From a virus: 43,022 bases of DNA. The translations under genes and the position numbers were made by a program. Under the pieces are notes generated by a model that had not been told where the DNA came from, ran no database searches, and worked only from the letters and a program-made list of their open reading frames with translations. Positions 5,671 to 37,628 of this stretch are shown here, piece by piece (the stretch's first letter is position 1; every line of letters starts with the position of its first letter). The DNA lies in the IMG/VR virus record IMGVR_UViG_3300032282_005958, positions 1 to 43,022 of that record. One strand, 5' to 3'.

Positions 5671-5698
5671 TTGACACGTTCTAACCGGTTGATACTTT
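5671..5698 (+). promoter_or_regulatory. Likely promoter of the major capsid operon
   Basis: TTGACA at 5671-5676 is a perfect -35, 14 bases after the scaffold stop. With a 16-base spacer the -10 would be TACTTT (5693-5698), a 3/6 match; GATACT at 5691 is closer to the CATACT seen elsewhere but is spaced only 14 bases. Transcription from here would give the capsid gene a leader of about 220 bases. A second TTGACA occurs at 5817-5822 without a convincing -10. Confidence 0.5.
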
Positions 5699-5705
5699 TA
5701 ATTAG

Positions 5706-5900
5706 TTCGGTGCAGGTATAAAGATTGAGACCCTTGCCGAACAAAACCTATAAAGATTGAAATGGTTTAGCAGAATTCGGGCATTAAAAGCTCTGGGATG
5801 CCGCCAGGGAAAAGTTTTGACAGTGGCGACAACGGATAACTCCGATAGGAGTTGGCGTTGAAACCATCAATCATAACCGACCCTTAGCGCGAGCTGGGGG
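5706..5900 (+). ncRNA. Structured 5' leader of the major capsid gene (four hairpins)
   Basis: The 270-base gap before the capsid gene has no coding capacity of note but clear pairing potential. Hairpin 1 (5706-5741) pairs TTCGGTG with TTGCCGAA (two wobbles), then a 2x2 internal loop and two GC pairs. Hairpin 2 (5744-5768) pairs AAACC with GGTTT. Both loops contain TATAAAGATTGA. Hairpin 3 (5830-5860) pairs CAACG/CGTTG, then AACTCC/GGAGTT with loop GATA. Hairpin 4 (5881-5900) has eight pairs (two G-T) closed by the GNRA-type loop GCGA, shortly before the ribosome-binding region. Between hairpins 2 and 3, GGCAT/ATGCC (5780-5802) and CTCTGG/CCAGGG (5791-5809) can form alternative stems. I recognise no known riboswitch or ribozyme. 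Roles could be mRNA stability, translational control of the capsid protein, or protein binding. Confidence 0.6.
5717..5760 (+). repeat. Two direct copies of TATAAAGATTGA, 32 bases apart
   Basis: Identical 12-mers lie at 5717-5728 and 5749-5760. Each sits in the loop of a predicted hairpin in the capsid leader. The 32-base period is also about three DNA helical turns, so a DNA operator reading is possible. The flanking stem sequences differ between the copies, which argues that the loop sequence itself is what is kept. Confidence 0.8.
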
Positions 5901-5926
5901 AAGGATGAAAGGAAATTGATACTACT

Positions 5927-7321
5927 ATGTCTACAACGTATAATATTCAGCAGCTTCTTGTAAAAGAAGCGGGTCGTATCGGACCGGAAATTTATCGCCG
6001 GACGATCGACACCTCTGCTTGGCTCAAATTGACCAAACAGGAACAATTCCCGGAGGAAATGGGCGATGTGATCAGTTCGGTCACTTTTGAACGTTTCTAC
6101 CCCTCCAGCGCACTTGCCTCTGCCGCTGATACCGCTGTTGGCTATGCAGTCAACGATATCAAGTCGGATGCAGGAACTAACTGGCGGACTCTCGGGTCCA
6201 ATCAGGTAACCCAAAATTACCAGGGTTTCAATCCCTATACCCAGGTGACCGACACGGCTGGCGCTAGTTTGCCCGTTGATTCGAGCTCCTCTGCCGGTAA
6301 CGTTCTGCCCGCGGCCCTTAACGGGGTGACGTTCGGTCAGAAACTCCGTCAGTACAGCCTGGAATGGGCTTCGGTTGATTCCCCTGACATCGCTCTCGAA
6401 GACTTGCGCTTCGCGGTGAAACGTCGGGAACAGCTGTCCAACATCATGGATGTCCTCACCGAGTCGACCTCCCTGATTTGGCAGGACCGTTATCGTAACT
6501 TGTATACTCGGAGCGTAGCTCTGGAAGGAAACCTCGTTTATCCTAGCACCACTGCTAACGGTATCGTTGCTTCCACCAGCTCCAGTTCTGGCGATGCGAG
6601 GGTTATTTATAACGCCGTGATTGGCGGAGTCGGCACTGCCGCCTCTGGTTTGATCACGACTGCTAACCTTCCTCAGAGCCAGCTGACTCAGGGAATCCTG
6701 AAGCGGTTGTACATGAAGCTTATCCGCGACGGCGCGGGAACTAACGCCATGGGCCGTGAGAACGGCGCTCCGGTGTTCATGTTGATCTGCGGTGCTGAAA
6801 CCAGCGAAAACATCATCCGCCTGAATGCTGACATCCGTCAGGATTACCGGTGGGCGAAGCCGAATGAATTGCTCACTCCTCTCGGCATTGAGCGTTCCTA
6901 CGGTGGTTTCTACCACTCAGTCGATCCGTATCCCCCGCGGTTCTCGGTGTACAACACCTCCCCGCAAAACCTGGTCCGCGTGTTCCCCTTCCGTAGGGAA
7001 ACCACGACCAAGGGTACGGCCTACAACATCAACCCGGCGTACGAGACTGCAACTTATGAGTTGAGCTACATCTTCCATCAGGATGTGTTCCGCTCGGTTG
7101 TTCCGTCTCCCATCAACGCAGCCAACAAGATGTCGTTCAACCCTCAGAACTACCGTGGTGAGTTCAAATGGGTTAACATTCTTGATCGGCAGACGAATCC
7201 TGACGGCAATGTTGGGTATTTTCGTGGCGTTGTGGCCAGTGGTGCGCGGCCCGTGTTCCCGCAGTATGGTTACTCCATCCTGCACACGCGTCCCTCCATC
7301 AGTCTTGATTACGTTAGCTAA
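5927..7321 (+). CDS. Major capsid protein (probable)
   Basis: This 464-residue protein is the likely main shell subunit. The call rests on its place after portal and scaffold, its length, and its expression signals: its own promoter, a long structured leader, and codon use clearly unlike its neighbours, with many C-ending codons (AAC, TTC, ATC, TAC) and higher GC, as expected of a very abundant product. Its N-terminus (about 5-25: IQQLLVKEAGRIGPEIYRR) is a helix, then a stretch of the type seen in HK97-like N4/T7-related shells that contains acidic and aromatic residues; the C-terminus is beta-rich. AAAGGA at 5908-5913 is 13 bases before the ATG, an unusually long spacing, perhaps adjusted by the leader fold. 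No protease or decoration domain is fused. I did not recognise a specific subfamily. Confidence 0.8.
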   Translation: MSTTYNIQQLLVKEAGRIGPEIYRRTIDTSAWLKLTKQEQFPEEMGDVISSVTFERFYPSSALASAADTAVGYAVNDIKSDAGTNWRTLGSNQVTQNYQGFNPYTQVTDTAGASLPVDSSSSAGNVLPAALNGVTFGQKLRQYSLEWASVDSPDIALEDLRFAVKRREQLSNIMDVLTESTSLIWQDRYRNLYTRSVALEGNLVYPSTTANGIVASTSSSSGDARVIYNAVIGGVGTAASGLITTANLPQSQLTQGILKRLYMKLIRDGAGTNAMGRENGAPVFMLICGAETSENIIRLNADIRQDYRWAKPNELLTPLGIERSYGGFYHSVDPYPPRFSVYNTSPQNLVRVFPFRRETTTKGTAYNINPAYETATYELSYIFHQDVFRSVVPSPINAANKMSFNPQNYRGEFKWVNILDRQTNPDGNVGYFRGVVASGARPVFPQYGYSILHTRPSISLDYVS

Positions 7322-7652: not shown

Positions 7653-7694
7653 TGATCCCCCGGGGTTTTATCCCCCGGGGGATCATACCTTTTT
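7653..7694 (+). terminator. Strong intrinsic terminator closing the head module
   Basis: TGATCCCCCGGGG (7653-7665) pairs perfectly with CCCCGGGGGATCA (7673-7685): 13 uninterrupted pairs, mostly GC, with a 7-base loop. Four bases later there is a run of five T (7690-7694). It lies 10 bases after the stop of the 99-residue gene and would separate the highly expressed capsid transcript from the next genes. Confidence 0.88.
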
Positions 7695-26036: not shown

Positions 26037-29000
26037 ATGGCAGATCCCCTTTCCCCGACAGGTATTGAATTTACGGGAGAGGACCAACAGGCTCTTGATA
26101 GTCTTTTTGCCTCCCCAACCGCCCAACCTCAAGATGAGCTTGGGTCGTTTTTAGACCAGCCCTCACCTACCCTTTCTCAGGCTGGCAATTTGATTCAGCT
26201 TCGGGATAACCCCAAAGCCGCTGACGTGTTACTTGGAACAGCAACTCGTTTTAAAGAAGGAAAACTTCCTTTTAATACTCAGTCTTGGCAGGACGCTCAA
26301 AAGAATGTTCAGGATTATATAACTTCCACATCGGAAGATACTCTAAAAGCCCAGCAGAATAATGATTGGATGGGCCTTACCAAAATTGCTTTGGGCGGGG
26401 TTGGTAAAGTTATCGGGTCTTATTTACAATCTGGTCTTGGAGTTACTAATGAAGATGCCAAAGCCATGCAGGAAAGTATGGCTGCCAGAAATTATATCGG
26501 AACAATTAAAGATCCAACGCAAGCCGCCAAGGCTTTAGAGCTTGGAAATCTTTACTCGGACGAACTGGCTTCCGGGCAATCAATTGCCCCCAAGGATCAA
26601 AAACCAGCCACAGAATTTGGACGTGGGCCGTGGAATACACCCAAGATCGGCATGAATCTCGCCAGGGCACAGGAGTATTACCAGGATTTACAAAGCGATA
26701 AAAATAAAAAACTGGGGACGGCGGGACTTCGTAATTTTGCCATTCAATCCGGGGATGCTTTTGTTCCGTTTGTTTCCATTGGGGACATTATTGTCGATGA
26801 GAATGACCCGGATCAGGTTGCCCGCCGTGCGGCCTTGACCAATGGGATTAACGACACAATCCAGAAAGATTATCTCCCGTCGACGTTGGCGGGCCTGACC
26901 ACCGGATCATTGGGTCAATTTATGGCTGTTGGTGCCGGAGCCACAAAACTTTTAGGACAAGCAACAGAAATTGCCGGGGTCACTATCAAGGTACCGACTA
27001 TGTTGTCCAAAGGATCCACGTACGCCGTGGTTGGAACGTCACAATCTTTGGATCAAGATCCACGTAACCTTAGTGTCGGACAGCGGTTGGCTTCCATTGC
27101 AAGTGAAGTTGGCGTTCTCGCCTTGTCAGAAGAAGCCGGAAACAAGCTGGAAGATGTTGTCGATAGATCGTTGGCAAATCACATGGTTGCCAAAGCTCTT
27201 GAAAGCAAATTACCCATGTTGGCCCCGGTAGTGCAGGGTACAGCCAAAGTAATCGGAACAACTTTGGGAGAATCTTCTTCCGATGTAATTGATGCCATTT
27301 CCCGCGGGCAGGACCCAATTGCTCAATTGCCACAAAGTCTTGCCGCTTCTGGGGGTATTGGTTTGGGAATGGTTTTGGTTGAGGGGTTAGCTGGACGGAG
27401 GGCCAAACTTAACCAGCAAGCCAACGATATGTTCTCGGACATTTTGAGACAAACAGTGACCGGAATTAAAACCGACCCCAAAATACCCGAGGAACAAAAA
27501 CAACAACAAATTTTAGAGTTGCGGCAGTCATTGAATAACTCCCAGGCCCAGGCTTTGTTTGATGCCATCAATGTCAGGGCTTCTGTGGATTCAGAGACTT
27601 CTCCCGAGACAGCAAGTGTGGCCGACGAAGCCATCAATAATTCAAAGCAAGGAGTTATTGAATCCATGCTTGCGGAGGCTGTCACCCAAGCTGAAAAACC
27701 AGTGGCCCAACCGCAAATCGGAATCCCACCGACCATAGAAACAAAAGCTCCGGAATCGGAGGAGGAATCGCTTGGGGCCCTTAATGAATTGGTCAACGTA
27801 TTTCAAAAGGGAGTTACTTCGGTTGACCTTTCCTCGACCCCCAACAACCAGGCCAAGATTGACTGGTTAGAAAAGCAAGGGCGTGTTTACGGCAAGCTTA
27901 CGGAAGACGGTTCCAAGTATCAGGTTCTTGGGGTCAAGGACAATGAAGGAAATTGGCTCGGCCAGGAAGATCCCGCCGAGATCATGCAGGATGAAAAGGA
28001 CGCCATCTTGCAGGAGATTGAAGCCAAGCCAGGGATCACTCAGGATCAAATTGATGAGATCACGGATCAACTGGACGCGGCAGTTTCGATGCCAGAAATT
28101 GAGGCCATTGCTTCGAAGCATCTAGGACCCAGCGAAATTCAGACTGCATTAGAGACCCGGCTCGCCCAGCAACAAGAACTTGTGGCTGAGGAAAGACCCG
28201 CCGAGTTTCGCGCCAAGAAAATTGCCGACCAGATTGCGGCTTTGCAGACAAAGATTCGGCAGTCTCCAATCGAGGAAACTCCAGCCCTTGAGGAACAACT
28301 TGCCAACCTACAGGCTATGGAAGCCCAGGCGCAGACAGAACGAGGTGTTCGTGGAGAACAAAGTGTTTCTAGTTTGATTGGACAATTTGAGCGCGAAACA
28401 AACTCCGCAATGAAAAGCGGGGCGCTTGCTCCCGAGTTGGAAGCCCGCCCTGAAGTTGTTTTGGCAATCAACAATCCGGAGAATGCGTCCTACCAAAAGT
28501 TTCAAAAGCTTGCCCCAGACCCTAGAGAAAATGACGTAAACGCTTTGGGTGATGTGTTCAATTTAAAAAACGCCGCAACGGTGGAGTTGTTGCAGAGTAT
28601 CGGAGCAATCGATGAAAACGGCCGAAATATATTAACCCCAGCCGAAACTTTGATGGCGTATGTCAAGCGCAAGAATGCTTACCTTCAGAGCAAATCGCTG
28701 TCCGGTTATCAGACGTACAATATTGCGGACGAAGTTTCGATGGGGTTAATCAATTCCTTTTTATATGAGTTGCGCCAAGGTAAAAGCAATCTTTCCTTAA
28801 GCACTATCTTCAACAGCCGTCTTCGGGATTTCATCCGTCAGGCTGTTCCCCGCATGCGAGCTGGTGTTGGAATTGGCGCGGCAGTCAGCATGGAAACTCC
28901 CGGACTTCGCACCCAGGCCGTGGATGCCGAGACACTGGCGGAAGAGCAGGGGATTAATCCAGCCGTTGCCGGAGCCATTAATGAAACCCTCGATCAGTTG

Positions 29001-32000
29001 GATGCCAGCGAAACTGATTTCCAGGCTCAAGGTCAAACCGAAATTCCTTCCGCGGCCCAGCGACAGGAAGCCCTGGCGGTTATCGCCGAAAACCTTAAAC
29101 AACCTTTTCGCAATTCTTTAGCCACCGACGCGGAGAAATTAGCGTTTGACGCTGTTGTCGGAGATACCAAAAACGTGGCTTCCGAAGCGGCCAAGATTGG
29201 AACGACAATCGACAATATCAACGCGCTTCAACCGGCGGTCAAAGCCAAGTTTATTCAAAACCTGGAGAACGATTACCGTAAGAATCAGCGCGAAGGAACA
29301 TTGCCGTCTCGTTCGATTGAGGAACCCGCTGGCGTGGTGCGCGAAGGAAGTCTGGCGGCCAATCAAATTAAACCCTACGTTGAACGTTTTCGTCAATTGC
29401 AGGGAGATAATTTCTTTGACGACTCAGAATTGATTGCCGCCAGAACTTTACTTGGTGAAGTGCAGTCATCCCGCTCTGCCGACTTGCTCAAGTCGTTCGA
29501 GAATTTTATTGAAAATGTAGCGGCCTCCAAACTTACGCCTGAGGCGATCACCGAACTTACCGAAGCCATCGACAGCAATTTACGCCAATCGACGGAAGAC
29601 GGAACCATTTCCCAGAAACAGGCGGACGATTACATCGCCACATTAAACAAACTTGCCGAGCCATATTTGGCTTCGGAAACCATGTCGGAAGGCGAAGCCA
29701 AGAATAAAATCGCGGCTGTTTTCCGGTCCAATCTGCTTCGTGTCAGCGACCAAATCCTGCGCGATAGCGGATTAACCATTAACGAGGAAGGCACATATGA
29801 ACAACCCAAACAACCACCAACCCCAAGACCTGAAGCCAAGACAACCGCTGATCGACGTGAGGAAGCTCGCGCAAAGCTCGCCGAAATCGAAGCCAAGCGC
29901 GCTTCCGCCGCAAAGCGAGTTCTTGAAAAAGCCGTTCCCACGGAGCGGAAAGAAGTGGAACGACCTGCTCAGCGTCCGCCAGCCGGAGTCGGGAGACCTG
30001 GAGTTGAACGCGCTCGTGGCGTCCCAGTCCCCAAGTCCTTCGTCGAGCCCCGTAACCAGCTAGCCAAACCTTTCAACGAAAAGATTCTTGCACCCGCTGG
30101 TCAACAGGTTCTTTCCAATCTGTCCAAAGAACAGACGCAGGATGTGGCCGCGGCTGTCACCACAATCGAGAACTCTAAGCACAAGGCATTCTACTTGGCG
30201 AACGGACCTGGAACTGGAAAGACGCGAGTGTTGCTTGGCACTGGAGCCTACTATCTCAACAAAGGATTTAAGGTTGTTTACATAACAGCTCCTGACGCCG
30301 TTACGCCGAACTGGGACTACGGGGATATTGGAGGATCCATCCAGAAGGATGCCGCGATTCTTGGCGTTCCGTTGGCGGTTCGTGGTGGGAAAGGTGAGAA
30401 CGGAAAGGGATTGCCAATTGAGTTTGTTCCGGGTCGGATGCTTGTTACCACGTACAATTCTGGATATCTCGAAAAACTTTTGCCGTTGATTGATGACAAG
30501 ACTGTTGTTCTTATGGACGAACAGCACTCTGGTCGAAACTTATCCAAAGCTATTCAAGGTGGAAAGACCCGGTCTTGGGCAATATTGATGGACGATATTG
30601 CCAACAAAGCTGGTCGCACATTGATGGCTTCAGGCACTCCGTTCGAAACTCCGGATCAATTGTTATCCCTTGGTCGACTTGGAATCTTTGACAATGAATC
30701 CCCCGACGCTCTGTTTACGCGGCTTGGTTTCCAAAAGTATTCCCTTCGTGGCGGAAAGAAATATTATTGGCAGTTGGCTGAAGGAGTGACCGAAGCGCAG
30801 ATGCAGGACAGGTTAGAAGCCTATCTTGATGGAATGGCCAAGAACGGGCTCATGCGTTCCCGATCCCTGCGACTCGATGGAGTCAATGTGGAGTTCCAGG
30901 ATGTTCCTTTGGACAGCAAGATTAAGCAACAACTTGAAGATATTAAAGCCATGTACGGCGGTTCACAAAATGTGGACATTGCATCACTCCGCAAAATGGC
31001 CGCTGCCCAAAAACGTGCGCTTGAGGAATACAAAGTTGAAGCCGCGGCCAAGCGGGCGATTGACGCCATCAAGCGTGGCAAGAAACCGGTTCTTTATGTT
31101 GGGTTTGTATCAGATGAAAATGCCAAGGGTGAGACAGTAAATCCCACTTCGGCTTTGCTTGAAGCCGCAATCGCCAAGCTTGATCCAACTCTCAAAGTGG
31201 CCCGAATGTACACAGGTTCAGAGCAAACCAAAGAACAGGCTATGGCCGCGTTCAACGAAGGGGACGCCGATATTCTTATAGCTACTAAAGAGATGGGCGG
31301 AACCGGCATTGAGTTGGACGACAAGTTTGGCGATGAACCCCGCGAGATGATTATTCTTTCTCCGCCGATCAGTGCAATCCAGGCGGTTCAGCTTATCTAC
31401 CGCGTTTGGCGTGTGGACAGCGCCAGCCGTCCCAACATTGTATTCCTTGAGTCACAGGCTGAGATTGACCAGAACACTATCGGTCGTATGCGGGCCAAGT
31501 TGCGTCTACTCGACGCAACCGTTGGTGCTGGCTTTGAAGGTCTTAGGGCTGAAGAAACCAAACCCTCTGGGGTTGCCAAGACCGGGGCTATTACAACTCC
31601 AGAAACAATTCGCGCAGCCGCAATGCTAACACCAGATGGAACTATTTATTCTGGATCTTGGCATCCGGCAGCTTACGAAGAATACATGAAGTATACCGGC
31701 GCCACCAGAGAGCAAGTGGTCGAAAAACTTAACAGCGGAGCAATTAAAGACGGGTTTGTAACATCGACGGGAAGATTTGTCACGAGAGAAGAAGCGGCAA
31801 TTATTGCTGAAAAAGCAAATCAATTCAAAGAGGGAAAAGAAGGAGATGTTGCTTACGCTGGAGGATTGAAAGGTATAGGGAACGCGCAAACCGAAAAAAC
31901 AAAAGCCAAAGAAACCAAATCAGCCGAAGTTGTCGCCCCGGTGAAATCAACAGTCGAAGCTACCGCCGAGCAACAAAAGTTTGTGGACACGGAACTAACT

Positions 32001-35000
32001 TCCGTTCTTGGAGCTAACTACAAAGACAATACGGTCACCTTCAAAGACGCCAAAGGGCAGCCTCGTACTTATAATGTTTTAGTATCTCCTACGGCAGAGC
32101 ATAGCGTCGCGGCTCAGGCTGGAATTGATAATGAATCTGACACAATTATTATCAACCCCGAAAAACTGGCTGTCGGTAAATCTCGGATATCAGCAAAAGA
32201 TTTTAAATCGTATTTAACCAAAGTTATGTTGGAGGAGACAATTCACGTTGAAACGTACCGGTATTTCCGTGAACTTGGACTTGATCCAGTGGAGGAATTA
32301 ACAGCCATCGGTGATGGTATGAGTCAAGCTACTCGGCTAGCTATAGCAAGGCTTTATTATTCTTCACTTGGTTCAGATATCACAGATCCCGTGGTTCAAG
32401 GAAAAATCAAGGCTATGGCTAATGATTCTTTCTTTACGGCTATGGAAGGAATTCGGCAACTGTCTCAGCTTAATCTTGTTGGAGGAATTACCGAGCAGGT
32501 AAGTTCCGTAAACGCAAACGATATTGCTAGGGCTACACAACGCCTTAAGGATCTTGTCGGTCAGGAACCCAAGTCTGTTCTCTCTAGACTCGGTGTGTGG
32601 TTTGACAGCATGGCTACCGTAGTCAAGCGTGGATTAGGTCTTGCCCCTCAAGCCACGGATCGCTTGGCAATGCGTCAAAGCATCGAAGATTCAATTTCTA
32701 ATCTTAGAAAGACTTCCAAGTATTTCATGGATGAATCAAAACCCGGACCCGTTCCGGCACCAGAACCTGGTCGCTCTCCAACGTCTCCCCGGCCAGCCAA
32801 TAAGTTTGACTCCTACGATCTTCGAATCTATCGAATGATTGAGAACCATCTCGAAGGCCGAACAGACGGAGTCTTTGGAGTCACCGAAGCTGACGACCTG
32901 TTCAAAACAGTTGATGTGAACGATTGGCTCGACGGCTTGGATGTTGCAGCTCGTCGCGGAATAATCACGAATCAAGAGCGCAATTTGTTCCGGGCCGCGA
33001 CTAAGTCCGTCATGGATGGTGGCCGGGCAAGCCTTCCAGGTATTGCCAACAAAGCCCTTGAGATTGCCGAAGGTATGGAAGAGTCGGGGGAGTCATTGCC
33101 GGTTGCAGCTTTTGTGGCCACGACTGAGCCAGTGAATTTGACTGAACCTTCCGAGTATGGAAGGTACAACGTAAAGATTGGGTTCTATCCGTCCTATCCT
33201 ACAACAGCTAAGACTTCAGCCGGAGCTGTGGCAAATACAGTTGCTAAGATGTTTGAAGACCGCAATGAAATTATTTTTGATGGTAAGACTTATACTTACA
33301 ATAATCGAGGTGCTTTGATTGCAGCTATCGGTAGGGCTGGATATGACAACTATGCTCGTCGGTTAACTCCAAGCGTAGAAGTTGTGACCGAGAAACCCAT
33401 TGTCAATTCGGTCTCTTTGGACGGAGGAACAGTTTCAATTCCAGTTCCACCACCTGAAGTTGCCCGCATCTTGTTGGCACCAGCCCCCGAGATTCGCGAA
33501 AGCCAGGCTGTAAAAAATATTGTAACTAAATTTGCGGATTCACTCCCAGAAGGAAAGACTAAGGATAAGTTACTCGATGCTTGGTATTATATGTCCGTCC
33601 CTCGCGAACAGCAGTTTGAGGATGCCCGTCAATACATCGGCACTTACGGATTTGATAATACACTCAATGCTTTCTTGGGAGGAAATATTAAATCTTCGCT
33701 TCCTTTGCAGGGTGCAATCGGATTTGAGTTGGCCAAGGGTCTAGGTGAAAAAGCCAAGACCGATAGGTTTGCTCGCGAACAGTTGGCCGAAGTAATGCTT
33801 CTGTTAAGCAAGAAGTACGGAACCGAACCAGGACGTACCGTTGATTTGTGGAACGCACTTGGCGAACTGTCCGCCAATCCAGAGGCCATGAAGATGTATG
33901 TCAGCAAACAAATTGACAGCGCAATCAAAGATCGTCTCGTGGCTTACAAGCCTGAAGAAAATGAAATTGCCTCCGGTTTGGTTGACGCAGGTCGTAGGGC
34001 GGCTGAAAAAATTACTACTAGCAAAAAGATGCAGAAGACTTTGGATCAACTCGGCAAGCTGGTCGACCTAAATAAAAAAGGTGGAACTGTTTCCCAGATT
34101 CAAGCTGTGCTTGCTGACTATCTTGCCAGTGAAGACGCCAACAAAGACGGCGCGGAATTCCTCGGAGCCGATCTTACGGCCGCACCCGAAGTTGGCGGAG
34201 GTGAGGCAGATGACATTCGCCTTGATCCCAAACAGACTCGAGCGCTTGGCCGTATTATTCTGGAGCTTATTCAGCGTTCCGAAAATCCCCGCGAGACTGC
34301 CGCTTCCGCCGATGAAATCAAACGGTTAGTAATGTTAGTTCCGGCCTTGCGTGACGCAAAGAACCAAGATAACGTTAGACGAAAGGTCGAACTTTATTTT
34401 GACGCTTCCCTCACATACGCACTCGAATCATACGGAGCTAAAGCGCTACGGGCAGCAAGGGCGAGAGAGGCTGGTGCGGAAGGTGGCGCGATTGGCGAAG
34501 TTGTCGCTCCCCCCGCCACACGAGGTGAAGCAATCCAACGAGCCGCGCAAGCAAAAGCAAAAGCGGCGCAAGAAGCACCGGTAATAATTCCGTCGGATGC
34601 TCTGTCTAAGTTGGCGGAGTTGGCTGAAGCCTCGGCAGATGCTCTCCAGAAACAAGCCGCTCGTCTCCAGCAAGAGCCCAAAGTAAAGGATGCCCTCGAA
34701 GAATTTGCAGCCCGTATCCGCAGATTGATTGCTCAGCGCACAAAGGAAATGGGCGGATTGCAGCCCGCGTTTGAGCCAGAGCCCAAGCCGACAGAAGCCG
34801 AAGTTTTGAAGGATCGGATCGCCAAGTATCCCGACGTTCAAGAGTTCATCGACAACGTTCGAGATTCGCTTCGTAACAACTATAAGGAAGAAGACCTGAT
34901 TGGGCTGGAGCCTTTCATTGAGGAAGCTTTTGGCCGACCCTTTGCCGTGTCCAGCTTAAAGCAAGCCGTCCGTTCGTTGGAATCTATTGGAGGCCCGCAG

Positions 35001-37628
35001 ACAAATATCCGTAGTCTTATCCGTTCCAGCCGTGGCGACATCATGGACTTTGAGAATAAGATGGGAGCCTTGCTTACCCAGAATACTAATCTTGACGAAG
35101 CCCAAAAGAAAGAGGTTCTTGATTTCCTTCGTGAAGGTATGTCAGAACTTATTTCTGATGAACGAAAAAAAGAACTGGAACGAATTAAGAAAAATTTTGA
35201 AAAGAAAAAAGAACGTAAGACCCGCAAGATGCGTTCGGCTCTAGATCGGTTGATTGAGGCCACCAATCTTGGTGTATTGACCGACAGCGAAGTGTTTATG
35301 CAGATGCGGTCGCAACTCGGGTTACCCGAGCTTACCGGAGCCGAACGAAACAAGCTTAACAAGATGATTGAAGATCTTCCATTGTACCCAGTGGGGATGA
35401 TCCGCAACAGAAAAATTTCTGAGATGTATCAGTATATCAAATTGGTCTCGCCCCAAGTTTGGGGAGAGTTGCTAGTCAACTACCAAACATCAAACTTGTT
35501 GGCCGGTATCGGAACGATTGGAATCAATGCCTGGTCGGCCACGGCAAGCAATGAATTGAATGCGGCCATTCTGGGAAGTGTTGGGTTTGTTCGAGGAATG
35601 ATTGGGGATAAAGCCAGATCTAAAGCTTACATTGAGGCGGCTAAAGCTTTGAACTCGGCTATTTTCATTGGGGAGAAACCAGCCCTTAAGGCGGCTGCTA
35701 ACATATTTTTTAAGGGCGATTACTCCTCGGTCCAGGATGCGCTGACTCAGGAACTTGGCGGAGTAAACATTTGGGAAGCTATTGTTTCCCAAGCCGAAGC
35801 TTATCGGGCAAAAAAACCAGGAGCCGTTAAGCCCGAACTTCCCGTCAATGTTCTCGGTCAAGAATACCGTATTCCGTTAGACTCCAAACTGATCAGTAGC
35901 AAGTATGGAGCTTTAGCTCCCTTTATTTTCTTCGGCCGATCCATGGCCGCGGGCGATGCGATTAACAAAATCTCTTCCAAGAAAATGTACGAGATTGCAG
36001 AAGCCACAAACATTGCTATTGAGAAAGGATTGAAGAGTCAGGAAGAGATCGAGCTAGAAGTTGCTCGGTTGTTAAACCAATCTCCCGAGGCTCGGGTAAG
36101 AGCGGAAGCAAAAGCAGCAGCTGAAGCTAAAGAATTTAACCTTACGCCGGATCAAGAATCCTTGCGGGTCGAGGAAATTTTGGAGCAAGGTCGGCCGGAT
36201 GAAGAAGAAGTTAAAAAGCTCGCTGAGAAAGCCAAGACTTTTGCGGCTCAATCAACTTATACAAATAACTTTGAAGGTTGGTTTGGGTTGATGGCAGACG
36301 GGCTTACCTCCATGTCGGCCAAAGCTTGGCCTCTGAGATTGTTTATTAAGTTCTTGAAAACCGGTTCTAGTTTGGCCAATGAAGTTTTAAACTTTATGCC
36401 GGTGACTTCGACTGTTCGCCTTTACCGCGGATCAGCGGCAATGCTTAAAGATACCAAGTACTATCGACCTCCGGCCGTGCCCGGAACTGTTGAGCACGAT
36501 TTGCTCGTGGGCAAGATGACTCTTGGTTACCTTCTTACCGCGGGATTACTTTATGCACTCAAAGAAGCCATGAGTGGCGAAGACGATCCGTATTTCATGA
36601 TTCACTTTAAAGGTCCAAATGACCCCGTTCAACGTGAAGCTTTTTTTGCTGCCGGTGGAAAGCTTCGCTCTATCCAAGTGGGACGATTCAAAGATGGATC
36701 ACCCCAGTTCTTCAGCTTTGAAGGTTTTCCTGTTGGTATTTCAGGTCCACTCATTTTGTCTTCGGCAATTGCAGAATCAGTGCGATACGACAAACGCTCC
36801 AAGTCAGAAGCTATCATTAACGGGGCGATTACTGGTGGAGCATTGGCGATGTATGGCATCATGGACATGGCAGCTCTTTCCGGTATTCGACAGATTATGT
36901 CACTCACATCGCCCGGACCTGGAACAAAAGATGCCAAGGGAATCATGACTAACTTGACTAAGACATTTGGCAATGTAGTCGGCGGTCTTATCCCAGGCTA
37001 TGCCACGTTGCGCGATATCGAGCAAGTATGGAACGGATTCACCGGAGCGCCTAGTGCCAGACCGTATCAAAACAATTTCCTATCCACTTTTGCTTTATCT
37101 GTTCCTTTTGCCTCTAAAGTTGGAAAACAAGATTTGGATTTTCTGGGAGGGAATGTCCGGACGCAACTTGCGAACACCATTCCCTTTGTCCGTCGTCTTA
37201 CCACCGTTGGCGTTGATGCCGTAAGTTACGACGAAGGTAAACGAACAGAACAAGCTGTTCATGACAAGTTAATCTCCATGTTTGCCGGCAATAGATTCTC
37301 GCTTGGCTGGGATGCCGGCCCCCTAACGGATTTTGCCATGCAGGAATTGATTGCCCAAAAACAAGCCAACAAGGAGCCTATTACTTATGACGACTTCTTT
37401 CAGCTTCGTCGGGAATTAACTAACGACGAGAAGTATGAGTGGATGCAACGGGCCGGCCCGATTATCCAGCAACAACTTGGAGCCATGATCCCTCAACTAG
37501 AACGAATGAGCCGGGCTGAGTTTATGGCTGTGGTTCCACAGATTGTGAACCCAATTAAGAAAGCAGTCCTCTACCAAGTCTTGCTTGAAAAAAATCAAGA
37601 AGGTATCTTGTTTCCAGAACGGAAGTAA
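26037..37628 (+). CDS. Giant virion protein with superfamily 2 helicase domain (3,863 aa)
   Basis: The protein takes up over a quarter of the window and is probably packed in the capsid and injected. Visible parts: hydrophobic helical stretches at about 285-305 and 390-450; an SNF2/strawberry-notch-like helicase at about 1350-1830 with Walker A GPGTGKT (1390-1396), DEQH box (1494-1497), ASGTP motif III, GGTGIELDD motif V and QLIYRVWR motif VI (from Q1785); a module with DGTIYSGSWHPAAYEEY and GFVTSTGRFV at about 1858-1920; a degenerate metalloprotease-like EETIH (2066-2070); a basic coiled coil at about 3041-3080; and several hydrophobic segments from 3150 to 3660. P1 DarB and similar giants combine such helicases with methylases against restriction; no methylase motif was seen here. 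The C-terminal hydrophobic region could form an ejection channel. An intact frame of 3,863 codons argues for strong selection. Confidence 0.85.
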   Translation: MADPLSPTGIEFTGEDQQALDSLFASPTAQPQDELGSFLDQPSPTLSQAGNLIQLRDNPKAADVLLGTATRFKEGKLPFNTQSWQDAQKNVQDYITSTSEDTLKAQQNNDWMGLTKIALGGVGKVIGSYLQSGLGVTNEDAKAMQESMAARNYIGTIKDPTQAAKALELGNLYSDELASGQSIAPKDQKPATEFGRGPWNTPKIGMNLARAQEYYQDLQSDKNKKLGTAGLRNFAIQSGDAFVPFVSIGDIIVDENDPDQVARRAALTNGINDTIQKDYLPSTLAGLTTGSLGQFMAVGAGATKLLGQATEIAGVTIKVPTMLSKGSTYAVVGTSQSLDQDPRNLSVGQRLASIASEVGVLALSEEAGNKLEDVVDRSLANHMVAKALESKLPMLAPVVQGTAKVIGTTLGESSSDVIDAISRGQDPIAQLPQSLAASGGIGLGMVLVEGLAGRRAKLNQQANDMFSDILRQTVTGIKTDPKIPEEQKQQQILELRQSLNNSQAQALFDAINVRASVDSETSPETASVADEAINNSKQGVIESMLAEAVTQAEKPVAQPQIGIPPTIETKAPESEEESLGALNELVNVFQKGVTSVDLSSTPNNQAKIDWLEKQGRVYGKLTEDGSKYQVLGVKDNEGNWLGQEDPAEIMQDEKDAILQEIEAKPGITQDQIDEITDQLDAAVSMPEIEAIASKHLGPSEIQTALETRLAQQQELVAEERPAEFRAKKIADQIAALQTKIRQSPIEETPALEEQLANLQAMEAQAQTERGVRGEQSVSSLIGQFERETNSAMKSGALAPELEARPEVVLAINNPENASYQKFQKLAPDPRENDVNALGDVFNLKNAATVELLQSIGAIDENGRNILTPAETLMAYVKRKNAYLQSKSLSGYQTYNIADEVSMGLINSFLYELRQGKSNLSLSTIFNSRLRDFIRQAVPRMRAGVGIGAAVSMETPGLRTQAVDAETLAEEQGINPAVAGAINETLDQLDASETDFQAQGQTEIPSAAQRQEALAVIAENLKQPFRNSLATDAEKLAFDAVVGDTKNVASEAAKIGTTIDNINALQPAVKAKFIQNLENDYRKNQREGTLPSRSIEEPAGVVREGSLAANQIKPYVERFRQLQGDNFFDDSELIAARTLLGEVQSSRSADLLKSFENFIENVAASKLTPEAITELTEAIDSNLRQSTEDGTISQKQADDYIATLNKLAEPYLASETMSEGEAKNKIAAVFRSNLLRVSDQILRDSGLTINEEGTYEQPKQPPTPRPEAKTTADRREEARAKLAEIEAKRASAAKRVLEKAVPTERKEVERPAQRPPAGVGRPGVERARGVPVPKSFVEPRNQLAKPFNEKILAPAGQQVLSNLSKEQTQDVAAAVTTIENSKHKAFYLANGPGTGKTRVLLGTGAYYLNKGFKVVYITAPDAVTPNWDYGDIGGSIQKDAAILGVPLAVRGGKGENGKGLPIEFVPGRMLVTTYNSGYLEKLLPLIDDKTVVLMDEQHSGRNLSKAIQGGKTRSWAILMDDIANKAGRTLMASGTPFETPDQLLSLGRLGIFDNESPDALFTRLGFQKYSLRGGKKYYWQLAEGVTEAQMQDRLEAYLDGMAKNGLMRSRSLRLDGVNVEFQDVPLDSKIKQQLEDIKAMYGGSQNVDIASLRKMAAAQKRALEEYKVEAAAKRAIDAIKRGKKPVLYVGFVSDENAKGETVNPTSALLEAAIAKLDPTLKVARMYTGSEQTKEQAMAAFNEGDADILIATKEMGGTGIELDDKFGDEPREMIILSPPISAIQAVQLIYRVWRVDSASRPNIVFLESQAEIDQNTIGRMRAKLRLLDATVGAGFEGLRAEETKPSGVAKTGAITTPETIRAAAMLTPDGTIYSGSWHPAAYEEYMKYTGATREQVVEKLNSGAIKDGFVTSTGRFVTREEAAIIAEKANQFKEGKEGDVAYAGGLKGIGNAQTEKTKAKETKSAEVVAPVKSTVEATAEQQKFVDTELTSVLGANYKDNTVTFKDAKGQPRTYNVLVSPTAEHSVAAQAGIDNESDTIIINPEKLAVGKSRISAKDFKSYLTKVMLEETIHVETYRYFRELGLDPVEELTAIGDGMSQATRLAIARLYYSSLGSDITDPVVQGKIKAMANDSFFTAMEGIRQLSQLNLVGGITEQVSSVNANDIARATQRLKDLVGQEPKSVLSRLGVWFDSMATVVKRGLGLAPQATDRLAMRQSIEDSISNLRKTSKYFMDESKPGPVPAPEPGRSPTSPRPANKFDSYDLRIYRMIENHLEGRTDGVFGVTEADDLFKTVDVNDWLDGLDVAARRGIITNQERNLFRAATKSVMDGGRASLPGIANKALEIAEGMEESGESLPVAAFVATTEPVNLTEPSEYGRYNVKIGFYPSYPTTAKTSAGAVANTVAKMFEDRNEIIFDGKTYTYNNRGALIAAIGRAGYDNYARRLTPSVEVVTEKPIVNSVSLDGGTVSIPVPPPEVARILLAPAPEIRESQAVKNIVTKFADSLPEGKTKDKLLDAWYYMSVPREQQFEDARQYIGTYGFDNTLNAFLGGNIKSSLPLQGAIGFELAKGLGEKAKTDRFAREQLAEVMLLLSKKYGTEPGRTVDLWNALGELSANPEAMKMYVSKQIDSAIKDRLVAYKPEENEIASGLVDAGRRAAEKITTSKKMQKTLDQLGKLVDLNKKGGTVSQIQAVLADYLASEDANKDGAEFLGADLTAAPEVGGGEADDIRLDPKQTRALGRIILELIQRSENPRETAASADEIKRLVMLVPALRDAKNQDNVRRKVELYFDASLTYALESYGAKALRAARAREAGAEGGAIGEVVAPPATRGEAIQRAAQAKAKAAQEAPVIIPSDALSKLAELAEASADALQKQAARLQQEPKVKDALEEFAARIRRLIAQRTKEMGGLQPAFEPEPKPTEAEVLKDRIAKYPDVQEFIDNVRDSLRNNYKEEDLIGLEPFIEEAFGRPFAVSSLKQAVRSLESIGGPQTNIRSLIRSSRGDIMDFENKMGALLTQNTNLDEAQKKEVLDFLREGMSELISDERKKELERIKKNFEKKKERKTRKMRSALDRLIEATNLGVLTDSEVFMQMRSQLGLPELTGAERNKLNKMIEDLPLYPVGMIRNRKISEMYQYIKLVSPQVWGELLVNYQTSNLLAGIGTIGINAWSATASNELNAAILGSVGFVRGMIGDKARSKAYIEAAKALNSAIFIGEKPALKAAANIFFKGDYSSVQDALTQELGGVNIWEAIVSQAEAYRAKKPGAVKPELPVNVLGQEYRIPLDSKLISSKYGALAPFIFFGRSMAAGDAINKISSKKMYEIAEATNIAIEKGLKSQEEIELEVARLLNQSPEARVRAEAKAAAEAKEFNLTPDQESLRVEEILEQGRPDEEEVKKLAEKAKTFAAQSTYTNNFEGWFGLMADGLTSMSAKAWPLRLFIKFLKTGSSLANEVLNFMPVTSTVRLYRGSAAMLKDTKYYRPPAVPGTVEHDLLVGKMTLGYLLTAGLLYALKEAMSGEDDPYFMIHFKGPNDPVQREAFFAAGGKLRSIQVGRFKDGSPQFFSFEGFPVGISGPLILSSAIAESVRYDKRSKSEAIINGAITGGALAMYGIMDMAALSGIRQIMSLTSPGPGTKDAKGIMTNLTKTFGNVVGGLIPGYATLRDIEQVWNGFTGAPSARPYQNNFLSTFALSVPFASKVGKQDLDFLGGNVRTQLANTIPFVRRLTTVGVDAVSYDEGKRTEQAVHDKLISMFAGNRFSLGWDAGPLTDFAMQELIAQKQANKEPITYDDFFQLRRELTNDEKYEWMQRAGPIIQQQLGAMIPQLERMSRAEFMAVVPQIVNPIKKAVLYQVLLEKNQEGILFPERK

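Follow-up and report, generated by a model that had tools for sequence, protein, structure and literature searches.

A leader RNA whose two hairpins share one loop sequence precedes the major capsid gene in a group of phages

The window analyzed here (the whole stretch of 43,022 nucleotides, IMG/VR record IMGVR_UViG_3300032282_005958) carries, ahead of its predicted major capsid gene, two hairpins that differ in their stems and present the same loop sequence. This raises the question of what reads the repeated loop, and with what effect on a gene whose product is needed in large, well-timed amounts. To our knowledge, little is known about RNA-level control of the capsid gene in tailed dsDNA phages. 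The twin-loop finding is real and larger than the original prediction described: the hairpins are the first elements of a structured leader of approximately 220 nt, spanning from a promoter-like TTGACA hexamer to the capsid gene (Table 1), and such leaders recur across a large group of uncultured phages.

Table 1. Features of the capsid leader and its surroundings (positions in the window).
Feature	Position	Strand	Basis
Promoter-like sequence (TTGACA 5671-5676, 16 nt, TACTTT 5693-5698)	5671-5698	+	sequence conservation
Hairpin P1 (5705-5712/5735-5742 plus 5714-5716/5732-5734)	5705-5742	+	covariation
Loop 1 on P1, UAUAAAGAUUGAGAC (12-mer 5717-5728)	5717-5731	+	loop counts
Hairpin P2 (5744-5748/5764-5768)	5744-5768	+	comparative
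Loop 2 on P2, UAUAAAGAUUGAAAU (12-mer 5749-5760)	5749-5763	+	motif as in loop 1
H-type pseudoknot	5779-5809	+	S2 covariation
Pseudoknot S1, GGCAU/AUGCC	5780-5784/5798-5802	+	invariant in clades A and B
Pseudoknot A-rich strand, UAAAAG	5785-5790	+	sequence
Pseudoknot S2, CUCUGG/CCAGGG	5791-5796/5804-5809	+	covaries between lineages
Helix P3, enclosing P4 and P5 (5814-5820 with 5871-5877, one mismatch)	5814-5877	+	RNAalifold
P4	5823-5834/5856-5867	+	double-sided changes in 7/12 pairs
P5	5838-5843/5848-5853	+	double-sided changes in 4/6 pairs
P6 with GCGA (GNRA) tetraloop	5881-5888/5893-5900	+	99.3% of cells paired
Presumed Shine-Dalgarno sequence AAAGGA (13 nt before AUG)	5908-5913	+	sequence
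Predicted major capsid protein gene (464 aa)	5927-7321	+	predicted-structure match
Terminator-like hairpin (13 pairs) downstream of the 99-aa ORF next after the capsid gene	7653-7685	+	hairpin scan

The original prediction assigned the leader to a capsid gene, an assignment now backed by a fold match. The ORF had no sequence match in Pfam, PHROG or PDB; its AlphaFold model (mean pLDDT of 59, which is modest) matched N4 gp56-type HK97-fold capsid proteins (E-values of 1e-8 to 1e-10), which supports its identification as the major capsid protein. The upstream ORFs include a terminase, and the others may, judging from an N4-like gene order, encode a portal, a small protein and a scaffold-like protein, for which convincing sequence similarity was not found. 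Several relatives carry, downstream of the capsid gene, hairpins comparable to the terminator-like one of the window. In three of them (L156, L195 and L202) strong terminator-like hairpins lie less than 50 nt past the capsid stop codon, so that the capsid gene may be transcribed there as a unit of its own.

The 12-mer TATAAAGATTGA occurs in two exact copies, precisely where the original prediction had placed them and each inside the loop of its own stem, and within the window there is no other copy or complement of it with 0-1 mismatch. No exact repeat in the window leader is longer, and approximately 0.5% of shuffles reach this length, while leaders of relatives contain exact repeats of 14-15 nt (reached by 0-0.5% of shuffles). 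The shared loop is 15 nt long (UAUAAAGAUUGAGAY), not 12, each 12-mer being its 5' part. The differing stems were found as originally drawn, and both hairpins were recovered by unguided RNAalifold analysis of 19 related leaders. The window leader folds better than 200 of 200 shuffles (z -3.2); this thermodynamic fold of the single sequence contains P1 and lacks P2, so that P2 rests on comparative evidence.

Capsid-protein and pattern scans first gathered relatives whose contigs carry the entire leader in the same place; these form clade A, with approximately 25 distinct leaders. Clade B, gathered by a scan for two loops spaced 12-42 nt, has capsid proteins 52-56% identical to that of the window; L075, a lone intermediate from the capsid-protein scan, has a capsid protein 48% identical; and leader types D, E and C come from distant capsid relatives (36-49% identity). 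The capsid tree has the order (E,(D,(B,(A,L075)))), with L075 placed as sister to clade A (support 97/91). Leader types A-D match the capsid clades exactly, which is also expected from plain vertical inheritance. Among clade A members the DNA from promoter to pseudoknot is 91% identical, versus 69-79% for the flanking coding DNA. Of the 30 contigs in which the leader core was found, nine (L023, L024, L028, L029, L031, L035, L036, L040 and L048) end approximately 120 bases or less from it, probably because a near-invariant core common to co-occurring phages breaks assembly. Other structured-looking capsid leaders, with neither twin loops nor the A-type pseudoknot, were observed in L077, L079, L163, L182 and L194. 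Neither the leader nor the clade A, C and D capsid proteins had a match among cultured phages in 50,697 phage records. In 84,980 bacterial and archaeal genomes the core was matched exactly five times; these hits were considered as prophage or host copies and rejected, as from their sequence context they look like chance.

Stem covariation among relatives, named beforehand in the original prediction as what would support it, was found in the alignments of clades A, B and L075. Unguided RNAalifold of the 19 clade A leaders found P1, P2, S2, P3, P4, P5 and P6. When the pseudoknot is included in the structure, 95.8% of this alignment's cells pair, versus 40-46% with the strands slid, and there are 76 double-sided changes versus 26 in shuffles; when clade B and L075 are added, these values become 97.3% and 111 versus 39. 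Within clade A, P1 has double-sided changes in 4/11 pairs and P2 in 3/5 (98.9% of cells paired), while in the combined alignment all seven counted P1 pairs vary on both sides, and the closing pairs of P1 change from GG/CC in clade A to CC/GG in clade B. S2 is represented by at least 6 different sequence pairs in clades A, B, D and L075, all of them paired. P3 is invariant and gives no covariation, and S1 does not vary in clade A, in clade B or in the downstream clade D pseudoknot, so that it is uninformative there; clade D has a second, upstream pseudoknot of the same form in which S1 does covary. In clade E the pseudoknot is seemingly kept, with S1 as GAGC/GCUC (by eye). By comparison of sequences, the predicted fold of the leader is shown. 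Three positions of P4 (5823-5867) are unpaired in the window and fully paired in close relatives such as L011 and L014.

The loops themselves are nearly fixed among relatives rather than freely diverging, and variation of loop 1 is limited to positions 9 and 15 in the 25 clade A leaders. Both copies read UAUAAARAYUGARAY in clade A and UAYAAAAAYGGAAGN in clade B, so the sister lineages differ at positions 7, 10, 13 and 14, in both copies together; positions 10 and 14 are clade-fixed in both copies, and 7 and 13 nearly so. L075 has B-type loops despite its sister position to clade A, and on this tree the simplest history would be a parallel change of the two loops along the branch leading to A. 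A recent copying event is argued against by the difference between the stems around the two loops. The simplest cause of such a parallel change would be a single reader serving both loops. Two pairings within the RNA were tried and rejected: kissing of the loops through their UAUA palindrome, which is broken in L075 and some clade B copies, and pairing of the loops with the conserved AAATCATAAC, which yields four pairs only and involves a strand that RNAalifold places in P3.

The same arrangement recurs in clade C, the most frequent leader type, with an unrelated sequence. Its leaders contain a module of approximately 27 nt (GGUUGYUCURGCC-N-YAGUYCUA) twice, each copy on its own stem; in L198 this is an exact 27-nt repeat. 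The strands flanking the modules pair with -7.8 kcal/mol versus -3.3 for mismatched strands (0/5000 permutations). A module scan yielded 93 stretches. Of the 80 loci examined among them, 67 had a second copy (relaxed pattern), and in all 61 loci with enough sequence the modules lie upstream of a capsid homologue. The rule of two stems with one loop before the capsid gene holds, therefore, with two unrelated modules, and different stems, the same loop module and an N4-gp56-like capsid gene directly downstream were found together in clades A, B, C and in L075. A boxA-like TGCTCT in clade C, a partial match by eye, was rejected as a candidate, having no counterpart in clades A, B and D.

The remaining parts of the leader concern its transcription and its junction with the gene. 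TTGACA does not vary in the 19 clade A leaders, and a TTGAC hexamer lies ahead of most other leader types; the -10 element is weak in clade A, where a consensus scan missed it, and in clade B it is CATACT at 17 nt. The leader RNA presumably starts approximately 6-10 nt past the -10-like TACTTT. The spacer at 5677-5692 (CGTTCYANCCGGTTGA) is nearly invariant in clade A, which exceeds the needs of a sigma-70 promoter, and is possibly a regulator site. At the other end, P6, with a GCGA or GAGA tetraloop in 19/19 clade A leaders, stops just short of the ribosome-binding region. AAAGGA was found in every clade A leader examined, and its region is predicted to be partly to mostly unpaired there (P unpaired of 0.50-0.86); in most of clade B the region is partly paired, an upstream UUCUCCU being complementary to AGGAGAA. 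No evident Shine-Dalgarno sequence was found in the leaders of clades C and E. A sigma-70-like match at 5916-5944 (TTGATA-17-TATAAT, 11/12), overlapping the capsid start codon and absent in L002, is probably due to chance.

Taken together, the leader is most likely a cis-regulatory element specific to the major capsid gene, whose loops would bind one protein. The original prediction, which is supported in part, had left the reader as a protein or an antisense RNA and had considered translational or stability control likely; the parallel loop change and the clade C module favour a single partner, and the antisense option was not borne out. Because the leader is strictly tied to the capsid gene, a capsid-specific reader is more likely than a general transcription factor. 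In the proposed mechanism, transcription would start just past the TTGACA hexamer, and the nascent RNA would fold P1, P2 and the pseudoknot first and then P3-P6, up to the ribosome-binding region. The two different stems would present the identical 15-nt loop to one dimeric or oligomeric protein binding both, most likely the capsid protein or a head-assembly partner. Unassembled capsid protein, as it accumulates, would attach to the leader of its own mRNA and reduce translation, and capsid supply would be matched to assembly. A simple occlusion model fails to fit all clades, as the Shine-Dalgarno region is not predicted to be strongly occluded in clade A and the sequence is not evident in C and E.

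That the reader is the capsid protein itself, in autogenous control, is plausible, if short of probable. Repression of T4 gene 32 by its own product has been shown and serves as a precedent: the operator that gp32 binds is a pseudoknot in the leader of its own gene (PMC535899). Both cases have a pseudoknot in a phage mRNA leader, upstream of the start region of a gene for an abundant protein; the T4 operator differs in consisting of a pseudoknot of approximately 28 nt and an unstructured UUAAA-rich stretch, with no twin hairpins, before a different gene and with no sequence relation. Phage N4, which has the same capsid fold, counts against the autogenous reading, with a gap of approximately 10 nt before its capsid gene and no leader. 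A wider version, which we regard as clearly unlikely, is an evolving RNA-protein recognition code in a deep dsDNA phage group: a capsid or assembly protein would read the twin loops, lineages would rewrite both together as the protein changes, and the leader might gather capsid subunits on their own mRNA, coupling translation to head assembly.

The main rival, although somewhat unlikely, is regulated antitermination, in which the nascent leader would, through its twin loops, modify RNA polymerase to pass the terminators downstream of the capsid gene, like HK022 put or lambda nut. The put RNA acts on RNA polymerase, binding its beta' zinc-binding domain, to suppress termination. It is approximately 70 nt long and forms two stem-loops (PMC9378689). 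The leader resembles it in being a phage RNA with two stem-loops close behind a promoter-like hexamer, and terminator-like hairpins do lie downstream of the capsid gene. However, put serves two early operons of HK022 and works alone, with no protein partner, whereas the twin-loop leader is not found in more than one operon or at early promoters but in one copy per genome, always at the capsid gene; its 220 nt far exceed what put needs, and it adds a pseudoknot and identical loops on different stems. The strong hairpins less than 50 nt past the capsid gene in some relatives would be pointless under an always-on leader, although this leaves the regulated form unaffected.

An element of stability or ribosome standby, with a fold that shields the 5' end or positions the start region and loops that dock within the RNA, is likewise not very likely. 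The high predicted stability of the fold and the GNRA loop on P6 are consistent with it, and invariant unpaired stretches could serve as receptors; the pseudoknot is nevertheless an unlikely receptor, as it hardly differs between clades A and B, unlike the two loops. Generic protection, moreover, has no need of identical loops, and in clade C the twin rule persists although the module is a different one.

A host protein of the CsrA/RsmA type, reading both loops and regulating the capsid mRNA, is quite improbable. CsrA recognizes the core ANGGA in hairpin loops of its targets, and in its twin-site leaders, as here, two hairpins offer the same loop motif to a dimeric protein. In L075 and in 13 leaders of clade B a sequence fitting this core, AYGGA, occurs twice in the loops; in clade A, the window included, its place is taken by AUUGA (or ACUGA), and GGA is absent from both loops in 25/25 leaders. 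The conserved loop has 15 nt rather than being a short GGA loop and lies approximately 180 nt from the start codon, the clade C modules do not fit, and no CsrA gene was found in 11 phage records.

There is similarly little probability that the leader is a separate trans-acting RNA for packaging or assembly, like phi29 pRNA, which merely lies upstream of the capsid gene. It is bigger and more structured than most leaders and is associated with capsid genes in all clades, but between P6 and the start codon there is no terminator-like hairpin, and the Shine-Dalgarno sequence adjoins P6. Moreover, phi29 pRNA assembles into a ring through complementary loops, whereas those of the leader have one and the same sequence, and their possible means of kissing, the UAUA palindrome, is broken in loop 1 of L075 and part of clade B. 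An antisense RNA pairing with the loops, which are accessible, A/U-rich and repeated twice, is highly improbable, at least as a phage-encoded one, since no complement stands out in 16 phage records, where non-twin matches are few and similar in number to a reversed-pattern control.

The twin loops occur solely at the capsid gene, with no second pair in 16 phage records. In a covariance-model search, 14 records of A, B, D and L075 each had a single strong match, and none had more than one additional, weak match (E 0.03 and 0.5); one record of clade E and one of clade C had no match. The original prediction knew of no described element with this pattern. In line with this, Rfam 15 had no match for the window leader at E<=5, for the window at the gathering threshold or for leaders representing the other leader types, and the open literature searched, from which subscription journals are mostly missing, yielded no account of an element like it. 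The leader is a strong candidate for an undescribed control element. The phage RNAs GOLLD and ROOL exceed 600 nt and lie near tRNA islands (PMC12286853). They are likewise elaborate phage RNAs with pseudoknots, found by comparison and with function unassigned, while the leader is approximately 220 nt long, tied to the capsid gene and without an Rfam match.

The leader is a conserved, compact RNA that comes with a natural specificity experiment, namely variants in which both loops were switched together, and tethering tools may gain a new RNA-protein pair from it. The covariance model could be used to annotate a poorly classified phage group and to mark capsid genes that Pfam and PHROGs missed here. 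Elsewhere in the window, positions 26037-37628 are occupied by a single ORF of 3863 aa, located immediately ahead of an endolysin gene, with weak helicase-type matches (Pfam AAA_34 below the cut-off; PHROG helicases with E-values of 0.006-0.008).
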